This document shows positions 9,088 through 34,021 of a DNA stretch of 34,021 nucleotides, piece by piece; the first letter of the stretch is position 1, and each line of letters starts with the position of its first letter. Made by a program: the position numbers and the translations under genes. A model generated the notes under the pieces. The model was not told the origin of the DNA. It did no database searches and saw only the letters and a list, made by a program, of their open reading frames with translations. Source of the DNA: Kiloniella laminariae DSM 19542. GTDB taxonomy: Bacteria > Pseudomonadota > Alphaproteobacteria > Kiloniellales > Kiloniellaceae. The stretch is taken from contig NZ_KB893169.1 in NCBI RefSeq assembly GCF_000374005.1, positions 176,726 to 210,746 of the forward strand, given 5' to 3'.

Positions 9088-12000
9088 TTAATTAATCGCA
9101 CTGAGCGGGGTACTTTCAAGCCGCTCCCGATAGAGATCCATAAAAGCCTGAATTTGTGTAATCTGCTTCAGCTCATCCGCTATTGACTTCACCGCACCAC
9201 TGTCGAGGCTACCTGTCAAAAGCCTAAAGGTTGCATTTCGAGGGCTCGCCTCCATTACAGCGCCATAGTTATCACGAAGCAATTGCAGGCCTTCATTATC
9301 TCCTGCCAGAGTCTGGGCAATTGCCAGATTAATCACAGCCTGGCTTTCTTCCTCATTCAAGGCACGATCTGTTGGCGGAGATGAAGGTATAAGCTTTCCA
9401 AGGCTCTTGCCGACTTCATTCCATTTGCGCATTTTCCACAGGATATCAGACTTCAGACGTAAAGCATCAAGGCTTTCATCTCCCGCAAGCAGGTCCAGGG
9501 CCTGATCTTCCTGAGAAAGCTCTGCCATTGCCCGCGCCCTGAGATGCAGCCGCTGCTGCTTGAGGTTATCAGGCATGTCAGCGATTTCTGTCTCATCCAG
9601 TGCTGTCAGGCTTTGTTCTGGTGTCCCTTCAAGCAAACGAATGAGCGAGAGGCGGGTTCCGACTCTTGCCTTTTCCTCACCCTCCAACCTGTAGGAAACC
9701 TGATCTGCAAGCAGGTCACCTGCCTGCTCCAGCAGATCTACATCTACCAGACGGTCCGCCAGTTTGGCGATCATCATCTCTCCCTTTTCGCCAAGCGGGG
9801 TGAGTTCTTTGAATTCTTCATAAAGTGCTATAGAGGAAAGCGGCGGGATACGGCTTCCGCCATCCTCAATATACATACCTTCGAAAATCTCTTTCATTCG
9901 TTTTGCGACCTGATCCGCCCGGTCTGAATGCGGAAAATAGGAAGCTGCCTGCCGAAGGGAGTGAAGACTTTTTCGATAGTCCAGTGCTTCCGCATAACGA
10001 TCCCCCAACTCGTTGAGGATCGCAAATTCGAACTTGTCCCCCCGCCAGGCAAAGCGGAGTTGCTCAAGCTGCTCGATACCCTCTTCCTGGGTTAATGTGC
10101 CTTCGTCAATCCCCAGCTTGGTCAAAGCATGCCTGGCACGCGCACTGGTTGGCCGATGCCGATTGTATTTAAGGCCTTTCCAGATTTCCCGGGCTTCTTC
10201 AATCATACCATCCTGAAACAGACGCTGACCTTCGAGGAAATCTGCCTGTGCCATTTCGAATTCTGTTGGATCACCTGCCAATACTTTCCCAAGGTAAAGA
10301 CTGGCACCCCCCGTATCCCCCACATGCAACGCCGTATCTGCGGCAAGTAAATATAGCCTGTTACCTACATTCGACGGCAAATCATAGATCAGAGCATCAG
10401 CCTCGGCAAAACCAATGGCAGCCGGCCCCCAATCTTGCCCTGAAGCTGCCAGAGCAGCTTGCCACAGTGCCGTTTCCCATTCACCAGCCAGAGCAGGATC
10501 AGCAAGAGTTTTTTCTGCTTCTTCAAAGTTATCACTCAAAAACTGGCTTGCTCCAAGGAGCAGTTTAAATGAAGGATCTTCGCTCAGGCGTCGATTTTCC
10601 TGTGCGACCAGCTCGAGCATTCCAATAGCTTCGGTAATGCGGCCATGGGCAAAGAAAAAACGGGCCAGATCAAGTCGGGCCAATCCTTGTTGCAGCCCTG
10701 TTGCTTCGGTCACCGCTCGCTGGAGATTTTGCAAATTCTTTAGATATACCTTTTCGTTCCCGCGCCGGTCAGCTTCCAGATCCAGCATTTTGATCGGAGG
10801 AACAGGCACCACCTCGCCACCCTTGGGCAAGGATCGCGCTGTTTCGCCGGAAACCAGCAGCTCTTCTCTGGAGCGAACCACAACAGCTCTCGGTGTGAGA
10901 GCCACAATCAGGCCTTCGGCAGTGGGTTGTAACACCACCCCCTGATAGGATGGCAAAGCCCGGAACTGCAGAAATTCATCAATTTTTGGTGAACCGAGAT
11001 TGGGTTCAGCAATCGGCGCCACAATCAGTCGATCTCCCAGTTCAGGATGAGACAGAGAAAGCAGTCGTGTTACTGACTTAACCAGGAACCTGACTTCAGG
11101 GCCGTCTTCGCCTCGACCAAGATCACTGACAATCGCCTGGACTGGCAAAGAAGATCGACGCCGGATGTCAATTGTCCAGCGACTACCCTCCTTACTCATG
11201 CGTGGAACTTGTGTTTGCGGGGCTGACAAACGCAGGACGGTCGCTCCGTCAATCGGCAGACTGTCAACCGGGGCAAACTGTGGCGCCATCTGTTCGATTG
11301 CCTGATGTAAATTCTCTGGTCCTTGACGATCAAAAACAAGCCAGAGATGTTCACCCCGCCGAAACACGGCGGCACCAGTTGGTTCAGGCCAGTTAAAATT
11401 GAATATTGTCGGCGGCAACAAATCTGCCGACCTTCCCGGTGGCGGGACAAGGAAAGGAATATCCAGTGGCTCTGTTAAGGTTACCAGATCCTGGGCTACC
11501 AGATCTGACTTGTCTTTTTCCCTGTTTCCATCCGTCCCGCCATCAACGAGTTTTAGCTCGGACAGTCTGACCGGTCCTGTGTTGTTTCTGGACTCCCCGG
11601 ACAGACGTTTTCGACCATTTTCAGGCTGACCTGTCGCCGTTGTACCAGGCCCCGGTTTTGTCGCATCAGCAGGATTCACAGGAGAAACTGTTTCTTTTGA
11701 CGGAGCCTGCTCGGAAGGAGTCAGACCTGCAATCCCGGGAACAAGAGGCGGAGATTTAGCCGGAGCTGTTTCTGGCGTGGTTTCGACTACAGGCTTTGCC
11801 TCTTCTACACCTGCGGGTTTTGGCAAAAGAGACAAAGGCCCGGATCCCGCCAGCTCATCAAGTTTGGGTAAAGTCACTTGAGGTGACGAAGTCTCCGCTT
11901 GAGCTGGTTCATTTGTTTTGGCGGTCTCAGCAGGCATAGGCACAGCAGGTTTCGCAGGCTCAGGAGCTTTCTGGTTTTCGGCCTTCTGGCTATCCCGAGG

Positions 12001-12747
12001 CTTGATATCAATGACAGACTTGGCGCCAACATTAAACAGACGGGCTTCCGAGCCTGGCGTCAGATTAAATTCCAGTTTCAAACCGGGTGATTGTTCCAGA
12101 ACCCTTCCTGCTTGAACCAGTGGCATTCTCGTCCTGTTAAGCTGAGAAAGGTCAACTTTTGCCGCTTTATCAAAGTCAACGACCAGTCGATCTCCCTGCT
12201 GGGACAGCTTTCCCTTTACCGCAGATGGCCAGTCCACAACCAGGCGATTATAATCCGGATGTTCGGCAAAGCGAAAACCTACTGTCGATGCCGGACTGGA
12301 GGCCACGACAGGTGGGGAAGGTTGTTTTGTTATTGCAGGCTGAGCTGTAGCAGAAGGCTGTGACGGATTAACCGTTGTTGCAGGATCTCCAATCCGAAGA
12401 TCAACAATAACCTTGCTGCCGCTTTTTGAGCTCTCCTGAACAAAGTCATCCAGAAGAGGAAAGGTAATTCGTTTTTTACTGTCAGCCAGGACAGGTTTTC
12501 CGGTATAGCCCCGCAGTCCCTGCCCCAGCGCCCCAAACTGATAATCTGCTTCTTGATCAAATTCGACGATAAGCTGTCTGTTTTCAATCCGGGCCTGATA
12601 GGGAACATCGCGCAGCCAGTCAAACACAATCCGTCCATAGCCAGGATGGACAGCAGCACGAACTGTCACGTCCTGAGCAACAGAGGCGAGAGGAAACAAG
12701 AACAGCAATACCCCTGCCAGAAAGATTTGGCACAAGGTTTTATTCAA
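9088..12747 (-). CDS. Large exported protein: AMIN-like repeats, Pro/Ala linker, TPR array
   Basis: The 1,219-residue protein has a signal peptide (about residues 1-24, ending SVAQD). It then has at least two diverged repeats of an AMIN-like beta module: HPGYGRIVFDW...LIVEFD near 34-68 and HPDYNRLVVDW...LVVDFD near 162-197. A third related segment lies near 440-480. Residues about 250-430 form a Pro/Ala/Glu-rich linker. The C-terminal half (about 680-1190) is helical with tetratricopeptide-like repeats, for example ARLDLARFFFAHGRITEAIG. Export to the periplasm is inferred. The start is TTG at 12747, overlapping the MotB-like stop (TTGA), with GGAG seven bases upstream. AMIN modules often bind envelope polymers and TPR arrays act as scaffolds; coupling to motB suggests a stator or motor scaffold. 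No named family is claimed. Confidence 0.8.
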   Translation of the reverse strand: MNKTLCQIFLAGVLLFLFPLASVAQDVTVRAAVHPGYGRIVFDWLRDVPYQARIENRQLIVEFDQEADYQFGALGQGLRGYTGKPVLADSKKRITFPLLDDFVQESSKSGSKVIVDLRIGDPATTVNPSQPSATAQPAITKQPSPPVVASSPASTVGFRFAEHPDYNRLVVDWPSAVKGKLSQQGDRLVVDFDKAAKVDLSQLNRTRMPLVQAGRVLEQSPGLKLEFNLTPGSEARLFNVGAKSVIDIKPRDSQKAENQKAPEPAKPAVPMPAETAKTNEPAQAETSSPQVTLPKLDELAGSGPLSLLPKPAGVEEAKPVVETTPETAPAKSPPLVPGIAGLTPSEQAPSKETVSPVNPADATKPGPGTTATGQPENGRKRLSGESRNNTGPVRLSELKLVDGGTDGNREKDKSDLVAQDLVTLTEPLDIPFLVPPPGRSADLLPPTIFNFNWPEPTGAAVFRRGEHLWLVFDRQGPENLHQAIEQMAPQFAPVDSLPIDGATVLRLSAPQTQVPRMSKEGSRWTIDIRRRSSLPVQAIVSDLGRGEDGPEVRFLVKSVTRLLSLSHPELGDRLIVAPIAEPNLGSPKIDEFLQFRALPSYQGVVLQPTAEGLIVALTPRAVVVRSREELLVSGETARSLPKGGEVVPVPPIKMLDLEADRRGNEKVYLKNLQNLQRAVTEATGLQQGLARLDLARFFFAHGRITEAIGMLELVAQENRRLSEDPSFKLLLGASQFLSDNFEEAEKTLADPALAGEWETALWQAALAASGQDWGPAAIGFAEADALIYDLPSNVGNRLYLLAADTALHVGDTGGASLYLGKVLAGDPTEFEMAQADFLEGQRLFQDGMIEEAREIWKGLKYNRHRPTSARARHALTKLGIDEGTLTQEEGIEQLEQLRFAWRGDKFEFAILNELGDRYAEALDYRKSLHSLRQAASYFPHSDRADQVAKRMKEIFEGMYIEDGGSRIPPLSSIALYEEFKELTPLGEKGEMMIAKLADRLVDVDLLEQAGDLLADQVSYRLEGEEKARVGTRLSLIRLLEGTPEQSLTALDETEIADMPDNLKQQRLHLRARAMAELSQEDQALDLLAGDESLDALRLKSDILWKMRKWNEVGKSLGKLIPSSPPTDRALNEEESQAVINLAIAQTLAGDNEGLQLLRDNYGAVMEASPRNATFRLLTGSLDSGAVKSIADELKQITQIQAFMDLYRERLESTPLSAIN

Positions 12748-25538: not shown

Positions 25539-27416
25539 ATGTCGCTATCTCTAGCCCTGAACAATGCTCTAAGCGGTCTGCGGGTCAATCAAAGTGCTTT
25601 GGCGCTTACATCGACCAACCTGGCCAACCTGAACAATCCGAACTACTCCCGCAAGGTACTGGTTCAGGAAACCCAGGTTATTGCAGGAATTGGATCCGGG
25701 GTTACCGCAGATGCAATTCAGCGAAGTGTAAATGTTCTTTTGCAACGAGACTTTCGTGAAGAAACCACTCGACTAAGTGCGATTCAAACTGAGAATAACT
25801 ATTTGAATAGAATTCAGCAGATGTTTGGTTCCGTCGCTAATAAAAATGCTCTTGGTGATCTGGTTAACAGTTTCTCTTCTTCACTCGAAAACATTGGAAA
25901 CAGTCCTGAGATCTCGTCCAATCACTTCACTGGAGTGAATAATGCTGTGAATTTAGCTGATCGTATTAGGGATATGGCTGATACAATCCAGAAAGAACGC
26001 ATTCGCGCAGACGCTGAAATTTCTCAAGCTCTGAAGGAAATTAAATCCCAGTTAAGTATCATTGCCGAAATCAACGGCACTATACCTGGTCAAAAAGCCC
26101 AAGGCCTCCCAACAGGAGACCTTGAAGACAAACGAGATCAGGCAATCAACACCCTGGCCCAATATGTTGACATTCAATATTTCCAAACAGATCGTGGGCA
26201 GATCAATGTCCTTACCGGCAGTGGGAAAACACTTGTCAGTGGAGCTTTTACAGCTGAGCTTTCCTTTAGAGAGACACCCTTTATCACAGCAAATGAAACA
26301 TATCCGACTGCGTTGGATGGAGTACATTTTAATGCAGGCGGATCGCCATCTGCTGCAAACGATATAACAGCAGGACTTACTGGAGGCAAACTAGCAAGTT
26401 TGTTTGAAGCCAGGGACAAGACGCTCCCCGCAGTCACAAACCAACTTGACCTGATGAGCGCTCAACTCCGCGATGCTGTGAACCTTGCCCATAACAGAGG
26501 TGCAAACACCCCTTTAGGCAAAGGTACTAATGCGGCCTCTCCAGCAACTCTCCTCAGTTCACGAAGCTTCACAAATACAGCGCAGGCCATGACACTTAGT
26601 GATGACGTTAATCTCGTCCTTCTAGATGTAAATGGTGTTATGGTTGGCGGCATGGGAACTATTGCAGCAGGAGCGACCACACCAGCTGCTGTTCAGGCAC
26701 AGATAAATACATTTCTTGGTGCAAACGGGACAGCTCAGTTTGATTCCAACGGAAGGTTAGAGATTAAACTTAACAGTAATGTCCGGCTTGCAATAAAAGA
26801 CGCAGGAACAGTTGCCAACCAAGGTGACAGTATTGTGCAATACGACGCAGATCTCGATAGCACTACCGAAAATTATAGTGGGTTTTCCAATTTCTTTGGT
26901 TTGAATGATTTCTTTGTAACCCCCCAATTGACTGCAGCGACACCAGCTGTTGCAGGGCAAGGCTCACAAAATGGGATTTCATCCGGATTTCTCGTTCGGA
27001 GTGACATCGTTGCAGATCCCTCAAGTATTTCCCGTGGTCGTTTAACCGGAACACCACCGAACTTACAACTCGGTAGCGGAAACAATGAAATAGCTCTAGA
27101 GCTGGCTGCTGCTTTCGAAAAAAACTACACTTTTGACAGTATCGCCAATGGCCCAAACAGAAACTCAAGCACTTTAGCCGGATATGCGGGAGTTATGTTG
27201 TCTTATAGTGCAACAACTACTCAGGTATCACAAAACGCATTGCAATTTCAATCGACCCTCACAGGTGACCTGCAAGTCAAAATGCAAAATGAATCCGGGG
27301 TAAATATGGACGAAGAGTTGGCCAATATGGTGATTTTTCAAAATGCATACAACGCCGCAGCAAAAGTAATCCAGATTACCGGCGAAATGCTCGATACCGT
27401 CATTGAATTGGCATAG
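25539..27416 (+). CDS. flgK: Hook-associated protein FlgK (HAP1)
   Basis: The 625-residue protein starts with ALNNALSGLRVNQSALALTS and TNLANLNNPNYSRKVL, the FlgK N-terminus. The variable middle domain is followed by GVNMDEELANMVIFQNAYNA and AKVIQITGEMLDTVIEL at the end. FlgK is the first hook-filament junction protein. The first 50-60 codons look like the G+C-richer upstream genes, while the body from about 25,720 on is visibly more AT-rich. The start is ATG at 25539 after GAGGACATC; flgL follows 11 bp later. Confidence 0.96.
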   Translation: MSLSLALNNALSGLRVNQSALALTSTNLANLNNPNYSRKVLVQETQVIAGIGSGVTADAIQRSVNVLLQRDFREETTRLSAIQTENNYLNRIQQMFGSVANKNALGDLVNSFSSSLENIGNSPEISSNHFTGVNNAVNLADRIRDMADTIQKERIRADAEISQALKEIKSQLSIIAEINGTIPGQKAQGLPTGDLEDKRDQAINTLAQYVDIQYFQTDRGQINVLTGSGKTLVSGAFTAELSFRETPFITANETYPTALDGVHFNAGGSPSAANDITAGLTGGKLASLFEARDKTLPAVTNQLDLMSAQLRDAVNLAHNRGANTPLGKGTNAASPATLLSSRSFTNTAQAMTLSDDVNLVLLDVNGVMVGGMGTIAAGATTPAAVQAQINTFLGANGTAQFDSNGRLEIKLNSNVRLAIKDAGTVANQGDSIVQYDADLDSTTENYSGFSNFFGLNDFFVTPQLTAATPAVAGQGSQNGISSGFLVRSDIVADPSSISRGRLTGTPPNLQLGSGNNEIALELAAAFEKNYTFDSIANGPNRNSSTLAGYAGVMLSYSATTTQVSQNALQFQSTLTGDLQVKMQNESGVNMDEELANMVIFQNAYNAAAKVIQITGEMLDTVIELA

Positions 27417-27427
27417 GGAGAATAATC

Positions 27428-28345
27428 ATGATTCGCGTATCCAGCTATGCTCAAAATCAGGTCCTGCAAGCAAACATGGCATCTACTCAAGCCAAGGTTT
27501 CTGAAAGAACTGTACAGATATCAAGTGGTAAAGTTACCCAAGAGTATACCAATATTGCCTTACAATCTCTGGAGCTGGTCAATCTGCAACGAGACAATAC
27601 CAGAACAACCCAGTTTGAAAGAAATACACAGTCAACTCAGACGCGCTTAGAGATAATGGAAACAAATTTGAGTACAGCTACAGAACGTATTACAAAGTTG
27701 TTGGCAGACCTCATAAACGGACTTAACGGCTCAAACATACAAGAGATTCCTTTTGAGCAATTTGCACAGGGTTACCGTTCCGAGTTAACAGCTGTTTTCA
27801 ACGCCCAACATGAGGGTCGATATCTGTTTTCAGGTAGCCTTACTGACACAGCTCCGGTTAATCTCAACGACCCTGCCTACACCCCCCAGGCAGGTCTACC
27901 TGGGACATTCACTCCGGATTTTGACTATTATCAGGGAGACAACGTCAAGCTCAGTAACCGTATTGACCAAGATACGACATTGGCATACGGGATTACCGCG
28001 GATGATCCAACTGTGGAGAAAATTTTACGGGGCCTTTCATATGTTGAGTATGCAGGCTTAAATGACGATACAACCGTTTTACAGGAAGCCTATAACGTGC
28101 TTCAGACGGCCCTTGATGGTGTTACCGCAATGCGAAGCCAGATCGGTGCACAACTCTCTGTACTTGATAGTACAAAGAAGAATCACGCCGATTACAAAAC
28201 CTATGTTCAGAATACAATTTCCGGTATAGAAGATGTAGATATTGCAGAATCAACCAGTAAACTGGCCTTTGATCAGGTCCAGCTTCAGGCCTCATACATC
28301 AGTATTTCACGTATCAATGAAATTACACTTTTGAACTATGTCTGA
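27428..28345 (+). CDS. flgL: Hook-associated protein FlgL (HAP3), flagellin family
   Basis: The 305-residue protein has flagellin-family ends: VSERTVQISSGKVTQEYTNI near the start, FNAQHEGRYLFSGSLTDTAP in the middle, and IEDVDIAESTSKLAFDQVQL with SYISISRINEITLLNYV at the end. Position after flgK and the RYLFSG motif favour FlgL over a true flagellin. It forms the second junction zone. The leader AGGGAGAATAATC contains a GGA that could be a CsrA target; that is speculative. Confidence 0.92.
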   Translation: MIRVSSYAQNQVLQANMASTQAKVSERTVQISSGKVTQEYTNIALQSLELVNLQRDNTRTTQFERNTQSTQTRLEIMETNLSTATERITKLLADLINGLNGSNIQEIPFEQFAQGYRSELTAVFNAQHEGRYLFSGSLTDTAPVNLNDPAYTPQAGLPGTFTPDFDYYQGDNVKLSNRIDQDTTLAYGITADDPTVEKILRGLSYVEYAGLNDDTTVLQEAYNVLQTALDGVTAMRSQIGAQLSVLDSTKKNHADYKTYVQNTISGIEDVDIAESTSKLAFDQVQLQASYISISRINEITLLNYV

Positions 28346-28413
28346 TAAGTCTTTGTGATTTCACGCTTACCATTCGTTAATCATGGTTGCCTATTGTAAC
28401 GGGAAGGCCCATT

Positions 28414-28923
28414 ATGCTGAATATCAGTCCGAATTACAAAGCTCAGGATTTCGCCGGAACCATAATGCCGATGACCGAGGAAAAACCAAAAAACATTATA
28501 ACCCTGAAGACCCGCTTCGGTGTTATGGAGATTGACCGGGAACGGACAATCAAGATGCCCCAAGGTATGGTAGGCTTTTCAGAATTCCGGGAATTTGGCC
28601 TCTCGATTCCTAACCATCCTGTACTAGAAGGCTTCATGCTTCTCCAGTGCATTGATGAGCCAGATTTGACCTTTATTTTAAAACCGTATGAATTATCCAG
28701 CGGCATTATTTCTGACGAGGATTTGGCTAATGCTATAAAACAACTCGCAATACCGCCCGAGAGCCTTGCCATTATGCTGGTTACAACTCTGAGACACCAA
28801 CAGAGTGGTCTGACCAAAACGGTGAATATCCGCGCACCACTGTTTCTTGACACTGTGAAACAATTGGGATGGCAACACATTCTTAACTCGGAAGATTACA
28901 ACGTTCGACATGCAATTAATTAA
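28414..28923 (+). CDS. fliW: Flagellar assembly factor FliW
   Basis: The 169-residue protein has the FliW signatures TRFGVMEIDRERTIKMPQGM, VGFSEFREFGL, LLQCIDEPDLTFILKP and the C-terminal KTVNIRAPLFLDTVKQLGWQ. FliW binds CsrA and flagellin and so couples flagellin translation to secretion. ATG at 28414 is chosen because GGGAAGG precedes it; the frame extends to a TTG at 28387. It lies 68 bp after flgL and only 12 bp before the acyl carrier protein gene. csrA is in the same locus at 6482-6736. Confidence 0.94.
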   Translation: MLNISPNYKAQDFAGTIMPMTEEKPKNIITLKTRFGVMEIDRERTIKMPQGMVGFSEFREFGLSIPNHPVLEGFMLLQCIDEPDLTFILKPYELSSGIISDEDLANAIKQLAIPPESLAIMLVTTLRHQQSGLTKTVNIRAPLFLDTVKQLGWQHILNSEDYNVRHAIN

Positions 28924-28935
28924 GTATCTTTAAAC

Positions 28936-29187
28936 ATGACTATCACGACACTTGAGCGCTTAAAGCAAGTTTTCACCAAAACACTTGAGATCTCCGGTTC
29001 TAATACACTCCACATATTGGAATATAACAAAACCCCCAAATGGGATTCAATTGGCCACATGCAGCTAGTTGCGGCTATTGAAACCGAGTTCGATATATTG
29101 ATGGAAACAGAACAGATCATTGACATGAGTTGTTTTGAAAAAGCCTGTCTGATACTCGGAGAACACGGGATTGACTGCACTTCTTGA
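28936..29187 (+). CDS. Acyl carrier protein
   Basis: The 83-residue acidic protein has the carrier-protein motif WDSIGHMQLVAAIETEFDI, with Ser38 as the expected phosphopantetheine site. It is followed by the usual helix (FEKACLILGEHG). It would hold acyl groups as thioesters for the enzymes encoded next. It is clearly not the housekeeping AcpP, whose motif is DSLD. It begins 12 bp after fliW without an obvious ribosome binding site and overlaps the reductase gene by 17 bp. A dedicated role in this gene set is inferred from position. Confidence 0.88.
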   Translation: MTITTLERLKQVFTKTLEISGSNTLHILEYNKTPKWDSIGHMQLVAAIETEFDILMETEQIIDMSCFEKACLILGEHGIDCTS

Positions 29188-29920
29188 AAATAAAATAGCT
29201 CTTGTTACTGGCTCAAGCAGAGGCATTGGGCGTGAGATTGCCTGCCTCTTCGCCAAGGAAAATGCCACTGTCATCTTGCACAGCCTTAACGAGAAAAACT
29301 GTCAGACTACTGCTGAAGAAATTGTTGCTCACGGTGGTAAAAGTCCCTTTATTATGGCAGCCGATATATCAAATCCAGATGAAATTTCCCGGATGTTCAA
29401 AGAAATTTTTTCCGTTCATAAACGGCTTGATATTCTGGTCAATAATGCCGGCATCTTAGAAGATCGTCTTCTAGGAATGATCACCCAAGACAATCTCAAC
29501 AAGATATTCGCGGTTAATACCTTTGGCACCCTGCACTGTTTACAACTTGCAGCACGCTTAATGCGAAGAAGTTCCAACGCCTCCGTAATCAATCTTTCAT
29601 CAATCATTGGCGTTGAGGGTGCAGCAGGACAAGCCGCATATGCAGCATCTAAAGCCGCAGTTATCGGGTTGACAAAATCTGCTGCAAAAGAACTCGGACC
29701 TCAAGGAATTCGAGTTAATGCCATCGCCCCCGGGCTTATCAAGACCGACATGATTGCTCATTTAAGTCTTGAACAAATTGCTGATCATATTGCGAACACA
29801 GCCCTCCAACGTTTGGGTTCTGCACAAGAGATTGCTCAGACCGTCCTGTTTCTCGCTAGCGATCAATCTTCTTTTATAACTGGGCAAACACTACAGGTAG
29901 ACGGAGGCTTGAGAGTTTGA
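29171..29920 (+). CDS. Short-chain dehydrogenase/reductase, FabG-like
   Basis: The 249-residue protein has the NAD(P)-binding motif TGSSRGIG at 13-20, NNAG at 91-94, the catalytic Ser at 143/144 (NLSS) and Tyr157/Lys161 (YAASK). It ends with FLASDQSSFITGQTLQVDGG, typical of 3-oxoacyl-carrier-protein reductases. It probably reduces a beta-keto group on a carrier-bound substrate. The start is TTG at 29171, inside the carrier protein gene, with GGAG upstream; no in-frame ATG is possible near the conserved N-terminus. It overlaps the next gene by 4 bp (TTGA). Confidence 0.88.
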   Translation: MTALLENKIALVTGSSRGIGREIACLFAKENATVILHSLNEKNCQTTAEEIVAHGGKSPFIMAADISNPDEISRMFKEIFSVHKRLDILVNNAGILEDRLLGMITQDNLNKIFAVNTFGTLHCLQLAARLMRRSSNASVINLSSIIGVEGAAGQAAYAASKAAVIGLTKSAAKELGPQGIRVNAIAPGLIKTDMIAHLSLEQIADHIANTALQRLGSAQEIAQTVLFLASDQSSFITGQTLQVDGGLRV

Positions 29921-31368
29921 AAACTCTCCTGTCAGCCCTAGATCATTTCTCAGATAAAACGGCTCTTGTCGACGGGCACAGCGGCCAAGAAGTTTCTTTT
30001 TCTACAATCAGATCAATGCACGACCTACTTCTTTCTGTCCTGCCGAGAGAAACCGGGAATTTGATCTTTATCCTATCCGATAACAGCCTGTCCCTTACAA
30101 CCCTTTTACTCGCCTCTCTCGCAAGCGAAAATGTTGTATGCCCCCTAGACCCTGCACTTCCTCGGGCAATTCTTGAAAAATATATTAAAGTTTTTTCACC
30201 AAATCTTGTCATTACCTCAGCCGAACCCAGAACCTTACCAAAAGAGCTCACCCCCCTAAATTTACGGGCAAAGGGAGGGGGGGAACAGAAATTACTCACA
30301 AACTTGATTTTAGAGGCTCGCTTTTATTTGGCGAACCTCGAACCCAAGGGCAAACCTCTCCCTTCTGGCTTAAGGCTTCTCCTCCCCACATCTGGGACCA
30401 CAGGCTCAGCAAAATTTGTCCGTCTTTCTGCATTTAATCTGGAAGACAATAGCAAGTCCATCAGCGGAGCGATGCAGATAACGGCAAACGACAAAGCCTT
30501 TGCCCACTTACCAGCCTTCTATTCCTATGGACTTTCTGTTTTGCTTAGTCACAGCTGTAGTGGCGCACGCAGTATTCTCTCCAAGGCTGGAATTATGGAT
30601 AAAGAATTCTGGCAGCAAATCCAACGTCATAATTGTTCTTTTTTCCCTGGTGTCCCTTTCCACTATGATATCCTCCTAAAGCTCGGCCTTGATCGGTTAA
30701 AACTTCCCACTCTCAATAGTTTTAGCGTCGCTGGAGGGAAACTTTCCGCCGACAAGCAGCTCGCATTTACACAACAGCTTCCCCCCCATATAGATTTTTA
30801 TATTATGTATGGCCAAACGGAAGCAGCACCCCGGATAACAACCTTTAACCTTTGTCATTTCCCGGAAAAACTTGGCTCTGTGGGCCCAGTAATAAGTACA
30901 GGCCAGTTAACGATATCCTCCCCCGAGGGGCTAATAGACACGCCGTACTCGCGGCAAGAAGGAGAGATTATCTATTCAGGGCCAAATGTGATGTGGGGTT
31001 ATGCCGAAACACGTGAGGACTTATATAAGGCACCTCAACTCGATAATATCCTCGAGACAGGAGACCTCGGTTACCTGGATGATGATAAATTTCTCTATAT
31101 CACAGGTCGGACTAAACGTATTTCTAAGCTTTATGGCCTCAGGTTCAATCTGGATGATATTGAACAAAGTCTGTCCAGAATTTCTACCTGCGCAATCATT
31201 GAGAAAGATGGCAAAATAAGAATATATCATGAGACCGCTGTGAATTCGAGCGCACTAAAAGATGCCCTGGAGAAACAATACTCTTTCCCCGGCAATATTT
31301 TGACCTTTAATCAGCTAGAAAAACTACCTCGCCTACCATCCGGCAAGCTGGATTATAAACGGTTATGA
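29917..31368 (+). CDS. AMP-forming acyl ligase (acyl-CoA or acyl-carrier ligase)
   Basis: The 483-residue protein belongs to the ANL superfamily. It has the P-loop-like motif LLPTSGTTGSAKFVRL at about 155-170, YIMYGQTEAAPR in the middle, ETGDLGYLDDDKFLYITGRT and the C-terminal lysine motif PSGKLDYKRL (Lys477). It would activate a carboxylic acid with ATP and load it onto CoA or onto the carrier protein encoded two genes upstream. The substrate cannot be read from sequence. The start is TTG at 29917 overlapping the reductase stop, with GGAGG nine bases upstream. It overlaps the next gene by 4 bp. Confidence 0.87.
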   Translation: MKTLLSALDHFSDKTALVDGHSGQEVSFSTIRSMHDLLLSVLPRETGNLIFILSDNSLSLTTLLLASLASENVVCPLDPALPRAILEKYIKVFSPNLVITSAEPRTLPKELTPLNLRAKGGGEQKLLTNLILEARFYLANLEPKGKPLPSGLRLLLPTSGTTGSAKFVRLSAFNLEDNSKSISGAMQITANDKAFAHLPAFYSYGLSVLLSHSCSGARSILSKAGIMDKEFWQQIQRHNCSFFPGVPFHYDILLKLGLDRLKLPTLNSFSVAGGKLSADKQLAFTQQLPPHIDFYIMYGQTEAAPRITTFNLCHFPEKLGSVGPVISTGQLTISSPEGLIDTPYSRQEGEIIYSGPNVMWGYAETREDLYKAPQLDNILETGDLGYLDDDKFLYITGRTKRISKLYGLRFNLDDIEQSLSRISTCAIIEKDGKIRIYHETAVNSSALKDALEKQYSFPGNILTFNQLEKLPRLPSGKLDYKRL

Positions 31369-32459
31369 CAACTGATATGACTTTTGAACATCTGCTGGTA
31401 AAATCTGCAGAGTCTCTTACTCCTCAGCACAAGACATATATGATGCTGGCCGGTCTGCTTGAACTTACCTCCCACCATCAAAGAAAATGCCCTCACTACA
31501 CCAAGATATTACAGGGTCTTGAGTTCTCTTCCAAAAATTGTATAAGCATAGAGGATGTACCGTTTCTGCCTGTAAATCTTTTTAAAAAATTCCAGCTACA
31601 CAGCCTCAGTTATCCGGATCAAATAATTAAAACCTTGGTATCCAGCAGTACTAGCGGAAATGCCCCAAGTATGATTTCGATTGATCATGAAACCGGAACC
31701 CGCCAAGTCCGTGCCCTGAACAAAACCTTACAGAGGATTTTAGGTAATCGACGGTTACCAATGCTAATCCTTGATATGTCTTCCGTAATCAGATCCGTAC
31801 CTCTTACCGCCAGAGGTGCCGGAGTATTGGGTATGATGCGTTTTGGACACGCACATTGCTTTGCCTTTGACGAACGGATGCAGCTGCAGGAAAAAGAAAT
31901 CGAGAGCTTTCTGACAAAGAACAGCAACAACCCTTTCCTCCTCTTTGGTTTTACCTTTATAGCCTGGGAATACTTCCTCCAGCAATGCCCCACCTCTTGG
32001 GATCTTGGTCAGGGCGTATTAATTCATAGCGGAGGCTGGAAAAAAATGCAGTCACAGGCCGTGAGTCCAGATACATTCAAGAAAACTTTTCAACAGAAGA
32101 TTGGGCTAAAGAAAATCTATAATTTTTATGGCTTGGTCGAACAGATAGGCAGTATTTTCTTAGAGCAAGAAAATGGTCTTCTCGCCCCCCCTCCCTTTAG
32201 CGATGTAATCATCAGGGATCCCTTTACACTCGCTCCTTTACCTTACGGTAAAGAAGGCTTGATACAACTTCTCAGCTTGGTTCCCAAAAGCTACCCTGGT
32301 CACTCCATCTTGACCAGTGACATGGGCGTACTCCACCCCAGCGAGATAATTAATGGCTCCCCTCACTGCCTCGAAGTTACCAGACGCGCTCCCATGGCCG
32401 AAATTCGCGGGTGCAGTGACACAGCCCCCAATCGCAGCGAGCTCGCAAATGAAAGTTAA
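31365..32459 (+). CDS. LuxE-like acyl-protein synthetase
   Basis: The 364-residue protein matches the LuxE family: CPHY at 42-45, VPFLPVNLFKKFQL at 65-78, VSSSTSGNAPSMISID at 92-107, IHSGGWKK and YNFYGLVEQIGSIF. It ends with EIRGCSDT, with Cys350 near the C-terminus, where LuxE carries its acyl-accepting Cys. In luminous bacteria LuxE activates a fatty acid and passes it to the LuxC reductase. No luxA, luxB or luxD is present. It overlaps the ligase by 4 bp and the LuxC-like gene by 11 bp. Confidence 0.87.
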   Translation: MTTDMTFEHLLVKSAESLTPQHKTYMMLAGLLELTSHHQRKCPHYTKILQGLEFSSKNCISIEDVPFLPVNLFKKFQLHSLSYPDQIIKTLVSSSTSGNAPSMISIDHETGTRQVRALNKTLQRILGNRRLPMLILDMSSVIRSVPLTARGAGVLGMMRFGHAHCFAFDERMQLQEKEIESFLTKNSNNPFLLFGFTFIAWEYFLQQCPTSWDLGQGVLIHSGGWKKMQSQAVSPDTFKKTFQQKIGLKKIYNFYGLVEQIGSIFLEQENGLLAPPPFSDVIIRDPFTLAPLPYGKEGLIQLLSLVPKSYPGHSILTSDMGVLHPSEIINGSPHCLEVTRRAPMAEIRGCSDTAPNRSELANES

Positions 32460-33696
32460 AAAATGCGCCCCAACTGAGGAAACCATTGAATTAGCAGAAA
32501 TTTTCACTTCTAAAACAATCGGCGCGAAAGCTGTCCCTGCTTTTTCAGAGTCGATCATCAATTTTTGTGCACACCTCTCAGACGCAATCGGCACAGAACC
32601 AAACTTGTCTCATGATCCTGAGCTTGCTGCATTGGCTTTCTGGCTACGTAAGAAAAACATCTCGAGCTTAGCCCAGAAAGACAATGAACCTAAAAAAAGA
32701 AAAACACACAAAAGCCCCAAGGGCGTTGTCTTCCTGATCCCTCCAACAAATGTTGGTTCTTTGTTTTGTTACCAACTGGTTTTATCCCTTCTCACAGGCA
32801 ACCGCACTCTGATTCGGGTATCCCCCAATGCTCCTGTCACAACAATAACGCTTTGCCGATTGCTCAGGGATCTATGCAAAAATCCTGCTTACAAAGAAAT
32901 TGCGCAAAGCTTTGATATTTTTTCATATAGGCATGAAACAGAAATTACTGCCGCGTTATCACAGTCTTGTGATCTGCGGGTAATTTGGGGTGGTGACGAA
33001 ACGATCAACGAAATTCGTAAAATCCCCTTGGCGGCAAAGGCTGCCGAAATCAGCTTTTCAGATAGGTTTTCCTGGGCCGCAGTCAAAGCCACATCGTATC
33101 TAGAGGCATCAGATTCAGAAAAACAGCAACTTGCCCAACGCCTCGCCAGCGACCTTATGTTATTTGATCAGAAAGCCTGTTCCTCTCCCAAAGCATTTTG
33201 CTGGATCGGAGGGAAAAAGGATATCAACTCAGCCACAGCGGTGTTTTGGGGAAATCTTACCAAAGAAATCGGGAAAAGGCCTGCTGAACTATGCATCGGC
33301 AACGCGGTCGAGAAACTAGATAATATTTATACTATATTGGCTTTAGTAAATAATTGTCGTCTGGAAACTCACTCTCCATTTCTCTCGACTTTGAAACTCA
33401 ACCAACCAAAGGTTGATACATTTGATCTCACGCGCGATCTCCATCAAGGGAATGGTCTTTTATTAGAGATTCGGGCAAAATCGCTCGGAGGAATACAGTC
33501 TCTTATTTCTAAGAAAGACCAAACTCTCTCCCACTATGGCTTTGACGGTAAAGAACTTACTGACTTTTTAGATTCATGCACAGGGAATTGCTTTGATCGT
33601 ATTGTCCCCATCGGCCAATCCCACATTTTTTCAGAGATCTGGGATGGATACAACATGATCGATGCTTATCAGAGAACGATAACTTTGAGTGAATAA
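32449..33696 (+). CDS. LuxC-like acyl reductase (aldehyde-forming)
   Basis: The product has 415 residues from ATG at 32449. The aldehyde-dehydrogenase-like fold is suggested by PPTNVGSLFCYQLVLSLLTG and NRTLIRVS. The active site FDQKACSSPKAF has Cys244, the LuxC signature. LuxC enzymes reduce an acyl thioester to an aldehyde with NADPH, taking the acyl group from LuxE. The frame stays open upstream to 32353, inside the LuxE-like gene, but that extension looks non-coding. No luciferase follows; 127 bp later an IS3-family element begins. Confidence 0.87.
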   Translation: MKVKKCAPTEETIELAEIFTSKTIGAKAVPAFSESIINFCAHLSDAIGTEPNLSHDPELAALAFWLRKKNISSLAQKDNEPKKRKTHKSPKGVVFLIPPTNVGSLFCYQLVLSLLTGNRTLIRVSPNAPVTTITLCRLLRDLCKNPAYKEIAQSFDIFSYRHETEITAALSQSCDLRVIWGGDETINEIRKIPLAAKAAEISFSDRFSWAAVKATSYLEASDSEKQQLAQRLASDLMLFDQKACSSPKAFCWIGGKKDINSATAVFWGNLTKEIGKRPAELCIGNAVEKLDNIYTILALVNNCRLETHSPFLSTLKLNQPKVDTFDLTRDLHQGNGLLLEIRAKSLGGIQSLISKKDQTLSHYGFDGKELTDFLDSCTGNCFDRIVPIGQSHIFSEIWDGYNMIDAYQRTITLSE

Positions 33697-33773
33697 ATCA
33701 TACACAAGTATTTTTAGACCAAACGGATCACAACCAGTCCATATGTTTAACGGTAATCCCCCCGAAAAATAGA

Positions 33774-34021
33774 TGTGTTCAAAAGTAGAATTTTCTCGGC
33801 AATATACCTGAGGAGATTTTAGATGAAGAATTCACGATTTAGCGAAGCCCAGATCATGTCAATTTTAAAGCAGGCAGAAGGTGGTGCGCCGGTTTCTGAG
33901 CTTTGCCGTGAACACGGGATGAGCAGTGCGTCTTTTTACAAATGGCGGGCAAAATACGGCGGCATGGATGCCTCTCTGATTTCTGAGATGAAGGACCTGG
34001 CAGAACAAAACCGCCGCTTGA
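33774..34021 (+). mobile_element. IS3-family insertion sequence, left part (cut by window edge)
   Basis: The segment begins near TGTGTTCAAAAG at 33774-33785, a plausible IS3-type left end (TG...), and contains the start of an IS3-type orfA. The right end and orfB lie outside the window, so the exact boundary and target duplication cannot be tested. The 76 bp between luxC and this end hold nothing recognised. Confidence 0.65.
33823..34021 (+). CDS. IS3-family transposase OrfA, N-terminal fragment
   Basis: Sixty-six codons are visible, starting MKNSRFSEAQIMSILKQAEG and continuing with PVSELCREHGMSSASFYKW, the helix-turn-helix of IS3-family OrfA proteins. AEQNRRL begins the leucine-zipper-like part. 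OrfA binds the IS ends and is joined to OrfB by frameshifting in this family. GAGGAG lies upstream of the ATG. The gene runs off the window edge. Confidence 0.92.
   Translation, partial: MKNSRFSEAQIMSILKQAEGGAPVSELCREHGMSSASFYKWRAKYGGMDASLISEMKDLAEQNRRL

Follow-up and report, generated by a model that had tools for sequence, protein, structure and literature searches.

The five-gene block behind fliW

The DNA analysed here, called the window throughout, is a stretch of 34,021 nucleotides from Kiloniella laminariae DSM 19542 (contig NZ_KB893169.1), and the subject of this analysis is a block of five genes in it that is joined to late flagellar genes. The five genes are located on the + strand at 28936-33696, 12 bp downstream of fliW, and encode, in this order, an acyl carrier protein (ACP), a FabG-like short-chain dehydrogenase (SDR), an adenosine monophosphate (AMP)-forming acyl ligase, a LuxE-like protein and a LuxC-like protein (Table 1). 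Successive junctions overlap by 17, 4, 4 and 11 bp. The initial annotation had given the same gene set, gap and overlaps, which proved exact in coordinates, strand and junctions, and had treated the genes as one block, as is confirmed by the overlapping junctions. The block most likely makes a small acyl group that decorates a sugar of the flagellar filament.

The SDR was scored at 255 bits against the FabG equivalog NF004198, which is under the cut-off of 296 bits. The longest open reading frame (ORF) for LuxC begins at 32353, and the start at 32449 gives a protein of 415 amino acids, near the 417 amino acids of LuxC from a congener (G005, see below). A Pfam scan detected no ketosynthase among the five genes, and the block is therefore expected not to extend an acyl chain, while it can reduce and load an acid. 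The wording 'without luciferase' holds for the block itself, among whose five genes no luciferase gene is present (luxA and luxB were not searched for). The GC content was 0.446 for the block, 0.455 for flgK, 0.435 for flgL, 0.443 for fliW and 0.487 for the whole window, and no clear foreign signature was seen in this comparison. The scan for promoters and terminators yielded 10 promoter-like signals (12.8 expected) and 11 terminator-like ones (9.3 expected), which is no evidence either way.

The interval between fliW and fliD in the genus

The LuxE-like protein was searched against 58 genomes and was matched in two, namely the own genome and the congener G005, which represents a second species of the genus. 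Within the genus, the block is present directly 3' of fliW in two of nine genomes. A contig of 15,096 bases in G005 carries flgK-flgL-fliW-ACP-SDR-AMP-LuxE-LuxC in the same order as in the window, and the identities of the ACP, SDR, AMP ligase, LuxE and LuxC proteins to those of the window are 71, 71, 45, 56 and 42%, respectively.

In the remaining seven congeners, fliW is present and no block was found behind it. A nucleotidyltransferase homologue stands behind fliW in six of these seven (at locus L100 it is not in that place), and homologues of a tetratricopeptide repeat (TPR) protein with a GT41 domain, of FliS and of FliD are found downstream, also in six of the seven, the contig of G006 being too short to tell. 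The genes of the interval were named from protein scans of two loci, L101 and L102. At L102, fliW is followed by RmlA (above its equivalog cut-off), methyltransferases, a WbqC-like protein, an ATP-grasp protein, the TPR protein with the GT41 domain, FliS and FliD; L101 additionally holds a PglD-like hexapeptide protein, PhyH proteins and a flagellin. TPR repeats and a GT-B domain are likewise combined in one protein in the flagellin glycosyltransferase FlmG, as described for Caulobacter (PMC7591256).

Because of this gene content behind fliW (RmlA, GT41, FliS, FliD and flagellin), the interval from fliW to fliS-fliD-flagellin is a variable flagellin glycosylation island in the genus, and the block is one of the gene sets that can occupy it. 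The window block occupies this island position, and its contig, C36, ends before the remainder of the island. A role of the block in flagellin glycan chemistry, as proposed in the initial annotation, is likely because the genus interval is such an island and because the same gene order has been published for flagellin islands of Aeromonas (see below).

In the congener G004, the nucleotidyltransferase homologue that follows fliW (locus L106, 2072-2744, reversed coordinates) is divided between two reading frames; the gene may be broken, or the sequence may contain an error.

Island genes on other contigs of the own genome

The window is the 3' end of C36 (210,746 bases, from a genome of 4.44 Mb), which stops inside an insertion sequence (IS) just past luxC. 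The 254 bp of this IS end recur at three more contig ends (C7:1-254, C11:17-270 and C24:62-315), and the assembly is broken by the IS repeat shared by the ends of C36, C7, C11 and C24. A single simple IS bridging C36 and C7 was ruled out, since the same IS end is present on both contigs.

The flagellins of the own genome are encoded on contigs C7 and C1. From the IS end (254 bp) onwards, C7 carries two GT41 proteins (one with TPRs), a hexapeptide N-acyltransferase, FliS, FliD, a flagellin, DegT, a second flagellin and RmlA, with FliS and FliD named by similarity to L102. The hexapeptide protein is of the VioB/NeuD type, with VioB (7txp) as its best PDB match (E 1.3e-17). RmlA on C7 (378 bits, cut-off 360.65) and RmlB on C1 (421.8 bits, cut-off 365.1) were both above their cut-offs, and RmlB is also present in G005. 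Together, the C7 and C1 genes are, as judged from these protein scans, parts for an N-acylated dTDP-4-amino-4,6-dideoxyhexose (dTDP, deoxythymidine diphosphate).

On C7, a remnant of a DDE_3 transposase (L120, 245-520) separates the IS end from the GT41 genes, so that at least two mobile elements have struck the island. Genes for NeuB, a PseB-like protein, DegT and a cytidylyltransferase form a nonulosonate locus of their own on C24 (L122, 24000-43000), which also holds genes similar to those for WbqC-like and hexapeptide proteins in the flagellin islands of the congeners. The sole NeuB match in the own genome is on this contig.

Gene neighbourhoods of related blocks

For the comparison beyond the genus, 84 loci were used, comprising the window, L011, three of 20 plasmid records and 79 of the best 80 of at least 565 places encoding a relative of the LuxE-like protein in a scan of named genomes (L012 was dropped as lying on the same contig as L011). 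Some of the loci are closely related to one another, e.g. those of Nonomuraea and Kibdelosporangium species, so that the 84 are not independent cases. The controls were planned as 20 stretches of 20 kb, of which 18 were obtained, two contigs being too short; they came from relatives of the window in its genus, family and order, and not from other phyla.

The relatives, being the best 80 of at least 565, span Actinomycetota, Bacillota, Spirochaetota, Acidobacteriota, Pseudomonadota and others. The strict order ACP-SDR-AMP-LuxE-LuxC is found in 52 of the 84 loci, window and G005 included, and variants of it in the rest; since the junction with fliW is repeated in G005 as well, the order of the block is not due to chance. 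The catalytic positions are kept almost throughout: the serine of the DSxGH motif in 79/79 aligned ACPs, Ser-Tyr-Lys in 72/72 SDR rows, the C-terminal PSGK lysine in 83/84 AMP ligase rows (the remaining one being a gap), the C-terminal cysteine in 84/84 LuxE rows (window included, and aligned to the cysteine of 7xc6) and the cysteine of QxxCxSP in 83/83 LuxC rows (window included). The two conserved cysteines of LuxE and LuxC are taken by us to be the catalytic residues.

Modelled glycan genes were detected in 62 of the 84 loci (controls 2/18) and two or more kinds of them in 45 (controls 0/18); a modelled acyltransferase was detected in 50 loci (controls 0/18). When only the 65 loci of at least 15 kb were counted, the respective numbers were 51, 38 and 42. 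A firmer measure than co-occurrence is adjacency, and in 34/84 loci an acyltransferase of the GNAT or hexapeptide kind is an immediate neighbour of the block. A DegT aminotransferase is nearby in 43 loci and NeuB in 18. The genes for flagellin and DegT, the block and a hexapeptide gene stand side by side at the Telmatospirillum locus (L030). At several loci of Bacillota and gammaproteobacteria, the neighbour of the block is a GNAT protein, PseH-like as judged from its surroundings, with NeuB and in most cases also a cytidylyltransferase close by. The Deinococcus plasmid copy of the block lies among polysaccharide genes.

Flagellar genes were matched in 6/84 loci and 0/18 controls by hidden Markov models made from the window's genus, with which distant flagellar genes may be missed. 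The block family is neither new nor specific for the flagellum, and a flagellum-specific block was rejected on this count. Of the association with flagellar or surface-glycan genes that had been envisaged in the initial annotation, the glycan side stands, and the flagellar side is refuted, as most loci are without a flagellar match.

Relation to the luminescence enzymes

The window LuxE-like protein reached 64.6 bits against the NCBIfam equivalog NF052244 (cut-off 550) and the LuxC-like protein 40.4 bits against NF052251 (cut-off 750), both far under the cut-offs; five LuxE proteins of Vibrionaceae, scanned for comparison, reached 674-726 bits. A LuxE tree was built from 50 chosen domain rows with midpoint rooting, and 5 of its 12 luminescent-type rows were checked against the equivalog. 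The 12 luminescent-type rows were split from the 38 others at 100/100 on a branch of 6.8, for which a long-branch warning applies (fusion rows versus luminescent-type rows), and the window LuxE pairs with that of G005 (100/100) inside the non-luminescent group.

The proteins of the block are thus of the same families as the luminescence LuxC-LuxE pair (7xc6, NF052244, NF052251) and share the conserved cysteines with it, but they differ in scoring far below both equivalogs, in their separate tree branch and in the lack of luciferase genes in the block. On these sequence measures, the block is only a distant relative of the lux genes that serve light production. The equivalog scores and the tree split led to the rejection of a luminescence system and of a diffusible-aldehyde system, and the diffusible aldehyde-derived product that had been suggested in the initial annotation finds no support.

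In Treponema sp. UBA4319 (L062 9902-12280), a protein of 792 amino acids matches both the LuxE and LuxC models, i.e. it is a LuxE-LuxC fusion; it sits in the non-luminescent tree group, apart from the fusions of Vibrionaceae.

Comparison with published systems

The five-gene order has been published, as orf1-orf2-orf3-luxE-luxC, for the Group II polar flagellin glycosylation island of Aeromonas, a group reported in 98 strains (PMC7874193). By the gene listing given there, with which the comparison was made in place of the sequences, ACP, 3-oxoacyl-ACP reductase, AMP synthetase, LuxE and LuxC stand in the same order as in the window. The Aeromonas genes are located downstream of pseH between pseudaminic acid genes, whereas the window block is located behind fliW with an IS after luxC; the glycosyltransferase gene fgi-1 follows luxC in all but one Aeromonas strain, and it is absent at that place in the window. 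No test of the function of the five genes is reported in the available text of that study, in which a liposugar is suggested. The same protein kinds (Acp, LuxE, LuxC, CaiC and FabG) are described for enterobacterial flagellin glycosylation islands, in 71 to 80 strains per gene and likewise with a liposugar proposed, the five-gene order being not stated in the text available (PMC4875605). The terms 'lux' and 'acyl carrier' were not found in the main text of the papers on the Geobacillus and Clostridium flagellin islands.

A precedent for a small hydroxyacyl group is the tetronate pathway (rfb/wbe) of Vibrio cholerae O1, for which a carrier protein and an AMP ligase are described as RfbL/RfbK (PMC12208996), and in which tetronate acylates perosamine (wbeL; PMC3441752). 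Searches were made in 197 genomes, i.e. the family of an Aliivibrio metagenome-assembled genome. In two of them (L155 and L156) an ACP, an AMP ligase, a gene of about 380 amino acids and a LuxE-LuxC protein of 830-836 amino acids form a single run, and a few kb upstream of it lie NeuB and a hexapeptide gene. The gene of about 380 amino acids was identified in L155, which alone of the two was covered by the scan, as an iron-containing alcohol dehydrogenase (Fe-ADH). In V. cholerae itself, RfbM is presumably an alcohol dehydrogenase, RfbN a LuxE/LuxC-like protein and RfbO a hexapeptide transferase, and the product of a pathway of this type is a 2,4-dihydroxybutanoyl group on an amino sugar. ACP, AMP ligase and the LuxE and LuxC domains therefore occur together in the window block as in the L155 and L156 operons, and the window differs in having an SDR in place of Fe-ADH and in having LuxE and LuxC as separate proteins (compared without the V. 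cholerae sequences). The window block may thus be regarded as a run of the L155/L156 type with an SDR replacing Fe-ADH and with the fusion split. The type with separate genes was found in 3 of the 197 genomes, and the other 28 matching genomes showed weak, luminescent-type or similar matches only.

The viosamine island of Pseudomonas syringae, as described in PMC3927599, contains an ACP, the 3-oxoacyl-ACP reductase VioR, the aminotransferase VioA and the acyltransferase VioB; this set puts a 3-hydroxy-1-oxobutyl group on flagellin viosamine, and loss of vioR removes the sugar. The comparison with a Pseudomonas island in the initial annotation was therefore apt as regards a dedicated ACP and reductase; it did not extend to the 3-oxoacyl-ACP synthase III (ketosynthase) VioS, in place of which the window block has LuxE, LuxC and the AMP ligase, none of which is in the printed gene table of the viosamine island. 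A further difference is that the DegT and VioB-like genes of the own genome are on C7 only, and not with the block.

What is already known from the published text is thus the five-gene order (Aeromonas), the gene kinds (Enterobacteriaceae) and the liposugar suggestion. In the open-access literature searched, no report was met of the block behind fliW in an alphaproteobacterial genus, of its wide spread outside flagellar islands, of its contact with N-acyltransferases, of the Fe-ADH/fusion parallel or of the mass argument given below.

In Aeromonas piscicola AH-3, the five genes are downstream of pseH, and its flagellin is reported to carry a pseudaminic acid derivative of 376.14 Da and an unexplained moiety of 102 Da, in a published glycan composition without a lipid chain (PMC7874193). 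By calculation, Pse5Ac7Ac is 316.127, the exchange of one acetyl for C4H6O3 gives 376.148, and C4H6O3 is 102.032. The 376/102 Da glycan of this block-carrying Aeromonas fits a C4H6O3 group, not uniquely, and the match is suggestive. In strain AH-1, for which no glycosyltransferase genes are reported between the pse genes, the glycan is 403 Da instead of 376 (the five-gene status of AH-1 was not part of the comparison).

Proposed function and alternatives

Taken together, the five genes are probably a mobile acyl-donor module for the N-acylation of amino sugars, which is used here for the flagellin glycan. In the proposed mechanism, LuxE would use ATP to activate a short acid (e.g. a C4 dicarboxylic or hydroxy acid) and pass it via its C-terminal cysteine to LuxC, by which the activated acid would be reduced to the aldehyde. 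The FabG-like SDR would reduce the aldehyde (or a keto group) to an alcohol, and the AMP ligase would load the resulting hydroxy acid onto the dedicated ACP. An N-acyltransferase (a hexapeptide protein of the PglD/VioB type or a GNAT protein of the PseH type) would then take the acyl group from the ACP and place it on the amino group of an amino sugar linked to a nucleotide, and the acylated sugar would be attached to flagellin by the TPR-GT41 glycosyltransferase. The initial annotation had suggested that the acyl group enters from the carrier; delivery of the finished hydroxyacyl group by the ACP to the N-acyltransferase seems more likely.

The general role is well supported, and the reaction order and the acyl group are what we infer. 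The mechanism builds on the observed gene set, order and overlaps, the kept catalytic residues, the genus island position and the recurrent contact with amino-sugar genes in relatives; the chain length would be short, the acceptor sugar would here be viosamine-like, and the genes would be co-transcribed. In a more specific form, which is put forward tentatively, the block may be a general factory of C4 (di)hydroxyacyl-ACP with which amino sugars of flagellin, O-antigen and capsule are N-acylated; it would explain the 376/102 Da of AH-3 and would be wired here to the late flagellar operon for a dihydroxybutanoyl-viosamine-like filament sugar.

Several points weigh against this function. The short-acid substrate of LuxE and LuxC in the non-luminescent clade is putative. 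The IS 3' of luxC ends the contig, so that no acyltransferase or glycosyltransferase is physically linked to the window block, and the link between C36 and C7 rests on synteny with the congeners, because the identical IS end on both contigs excludes a single-IS bridge. On C7, the hexapeptide protein is below the cut-off of TIGR03570 (NeuD/PglB/VioB; 148 bits, cut-off 160.8), and the DegT aminotransferase, with DesI as its best model, is below that of NCBIfam (135 bits, cut-off 650). In G005, the gene after luxC is antisense, is truncated by the contig end and matches a nucleotidyltransferase model below the threshold only (16.9 bits, cut-off 21.2), and it is not an acyltransferase. In the family, no modelled acyltransferase touches the block in 50/84 loci, and in 12/84 loci neither a glycan gene nor an acyltransferase gene was detected with the models (of these 12, which include the window and G005, 7 have a length of at least 15 kb). 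The contrast with the controls is partly circular, because the neighbour models were built from genes recurrent in the same loci and the controls are relatives of the window only. The formula of 376 Da is also obtained with O-methyl-glyceroyl, with two hydroxypropanoyl groups and with others, for which reason the mass match is no more than suggestive.

Among the alternatives, it is unlikely that the aldehyde itself is the product within the same island, which would be coupled to an amine or else condensed with another unit, e.g. by an enzyme that is NeuB-like or depends on thiamine. Block variants without an SDR between ACP and ligase were observed in L157 and L158 (Vibrionaceae), where NeuB and a thiamine pyrophosphate enzyme are among the genes, and in L010 (Rhizobium plasmid), beside a transketolase pair, and these variants hint at a different use of the aldehyde. 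In the LuxE tree, all three belong to a single branch of 7 rows that does not include the window, whereas the window form keeps the SDR and shows no partner of the NeuB or thiamine pyrophosphate type; the Fe-ADH form and the tetronate precedent also point to an alcohol.

Ranking after it, and improbable as well, is the explanation that the block is used for a surface polysaccharide, namely O-antigen or capsule, or for some other product, and that its position behind fliW is a transcriptional hitch-hike only. The few flagellar matches in the family, the polysaccharide genes around the Deinococcus plasmid copy and the nonulosonate locus on C24 with its hexapeptide and WbqC-like genes would agree with this explanation, but the position is that of the genus glycosylation island beside flagellar genes and is kept in the second species G005, and the same five-gene order is present in the flagellin islands of Aeromonas (PMC7874193).

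Least probable is the published guess of a lipid-sugar, i.e. of a long-chain fatty acid converted to a fatty aldehyde or alcohol and attached to flagellin or a surface glycan: the set is called fatty-acid-related in both describing papers, where a liposugar is suggested (PMC7874193, PMC4875605), and the named LuxE and LuxC families and the PDB entry are long-chain enzymes, but the window proteins are far under the long-chain cut-offs and split from luminescent-type LuxE at 100/100, the relatives often touch N-acyltransferases of the amino-sugar type, and the AH-3 glycan composition as published is without a lipid chain (PMC7874193).

The five-gene block has been labelled 'fatty acid' or 'liposugar' since 2016, and no function test is reported in the available text of the describing papers (PMC7874193, PMC4875605). 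The present comparison connects it with N-acyltransferases for amino sugars and, through the precedent of a hydroxyacyl group, with the chemistry of O-antigens. If the function as an acyl-donor module is true, one annotation would be corrected for flagella, capsules and O-antigens across many phyla.

Flanking features of the window

The features of the block and of its flanks are listed in Table 1.

Table 1. Genes of the block and flanking features in the window, with the bases of their names
Feature	Position	Strand	Basis
flgK, hook-associated protein 1	25539..27416	+	ORF; counterpart in the same place in G005; name from the initial annotation and position
flgL, hook-associated protein 3	27428..28345	+	ORF; 77-79% identity to counterparts in 7 congeners compared; name given without own family scan
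fliW	28387..28923	+	Directly before the block; Pfam PF02623, 66 bits, above cut-off; present in 8/8 congeners
ACP, dedicated	28936..29187	+	DSIGH phosphopantetheine serine; PF00550, 14.0 bits, below cut-off 20.8
FabG-like SDR, proposed aldehyde/ketone reductase	29171..29920	+	TTG start; PF13561, 230 bits, above cut-off
AMP-forming acyl ligase, proposed ACP loader	29917..31368	+	TTG start; PF00501, 138 bits, above cut-off
LuxE-like acyl-protein synthetase, non-luminescent clade	31365..32459	+	PF04443, 156 bits, above cut-off; PDB relative 7xc6, LuxE chain
LuxC-like acyl reductase	32449..33696	+	ATG at 32449; PF05893, 89 bits, above cut-off
IS end, HTH_Tnp_1 transposase ORF	33752..34021	+	PF01527, 77 bits; contig stops inside

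Farther upstream in the window, a protein of 1219 amino acids with sub-threshold matches only, to AMIN and TPR models, is encoded on the - strand at 9088-12747, and it adjoins a MotB-like gene (PF13677, above cut-off).

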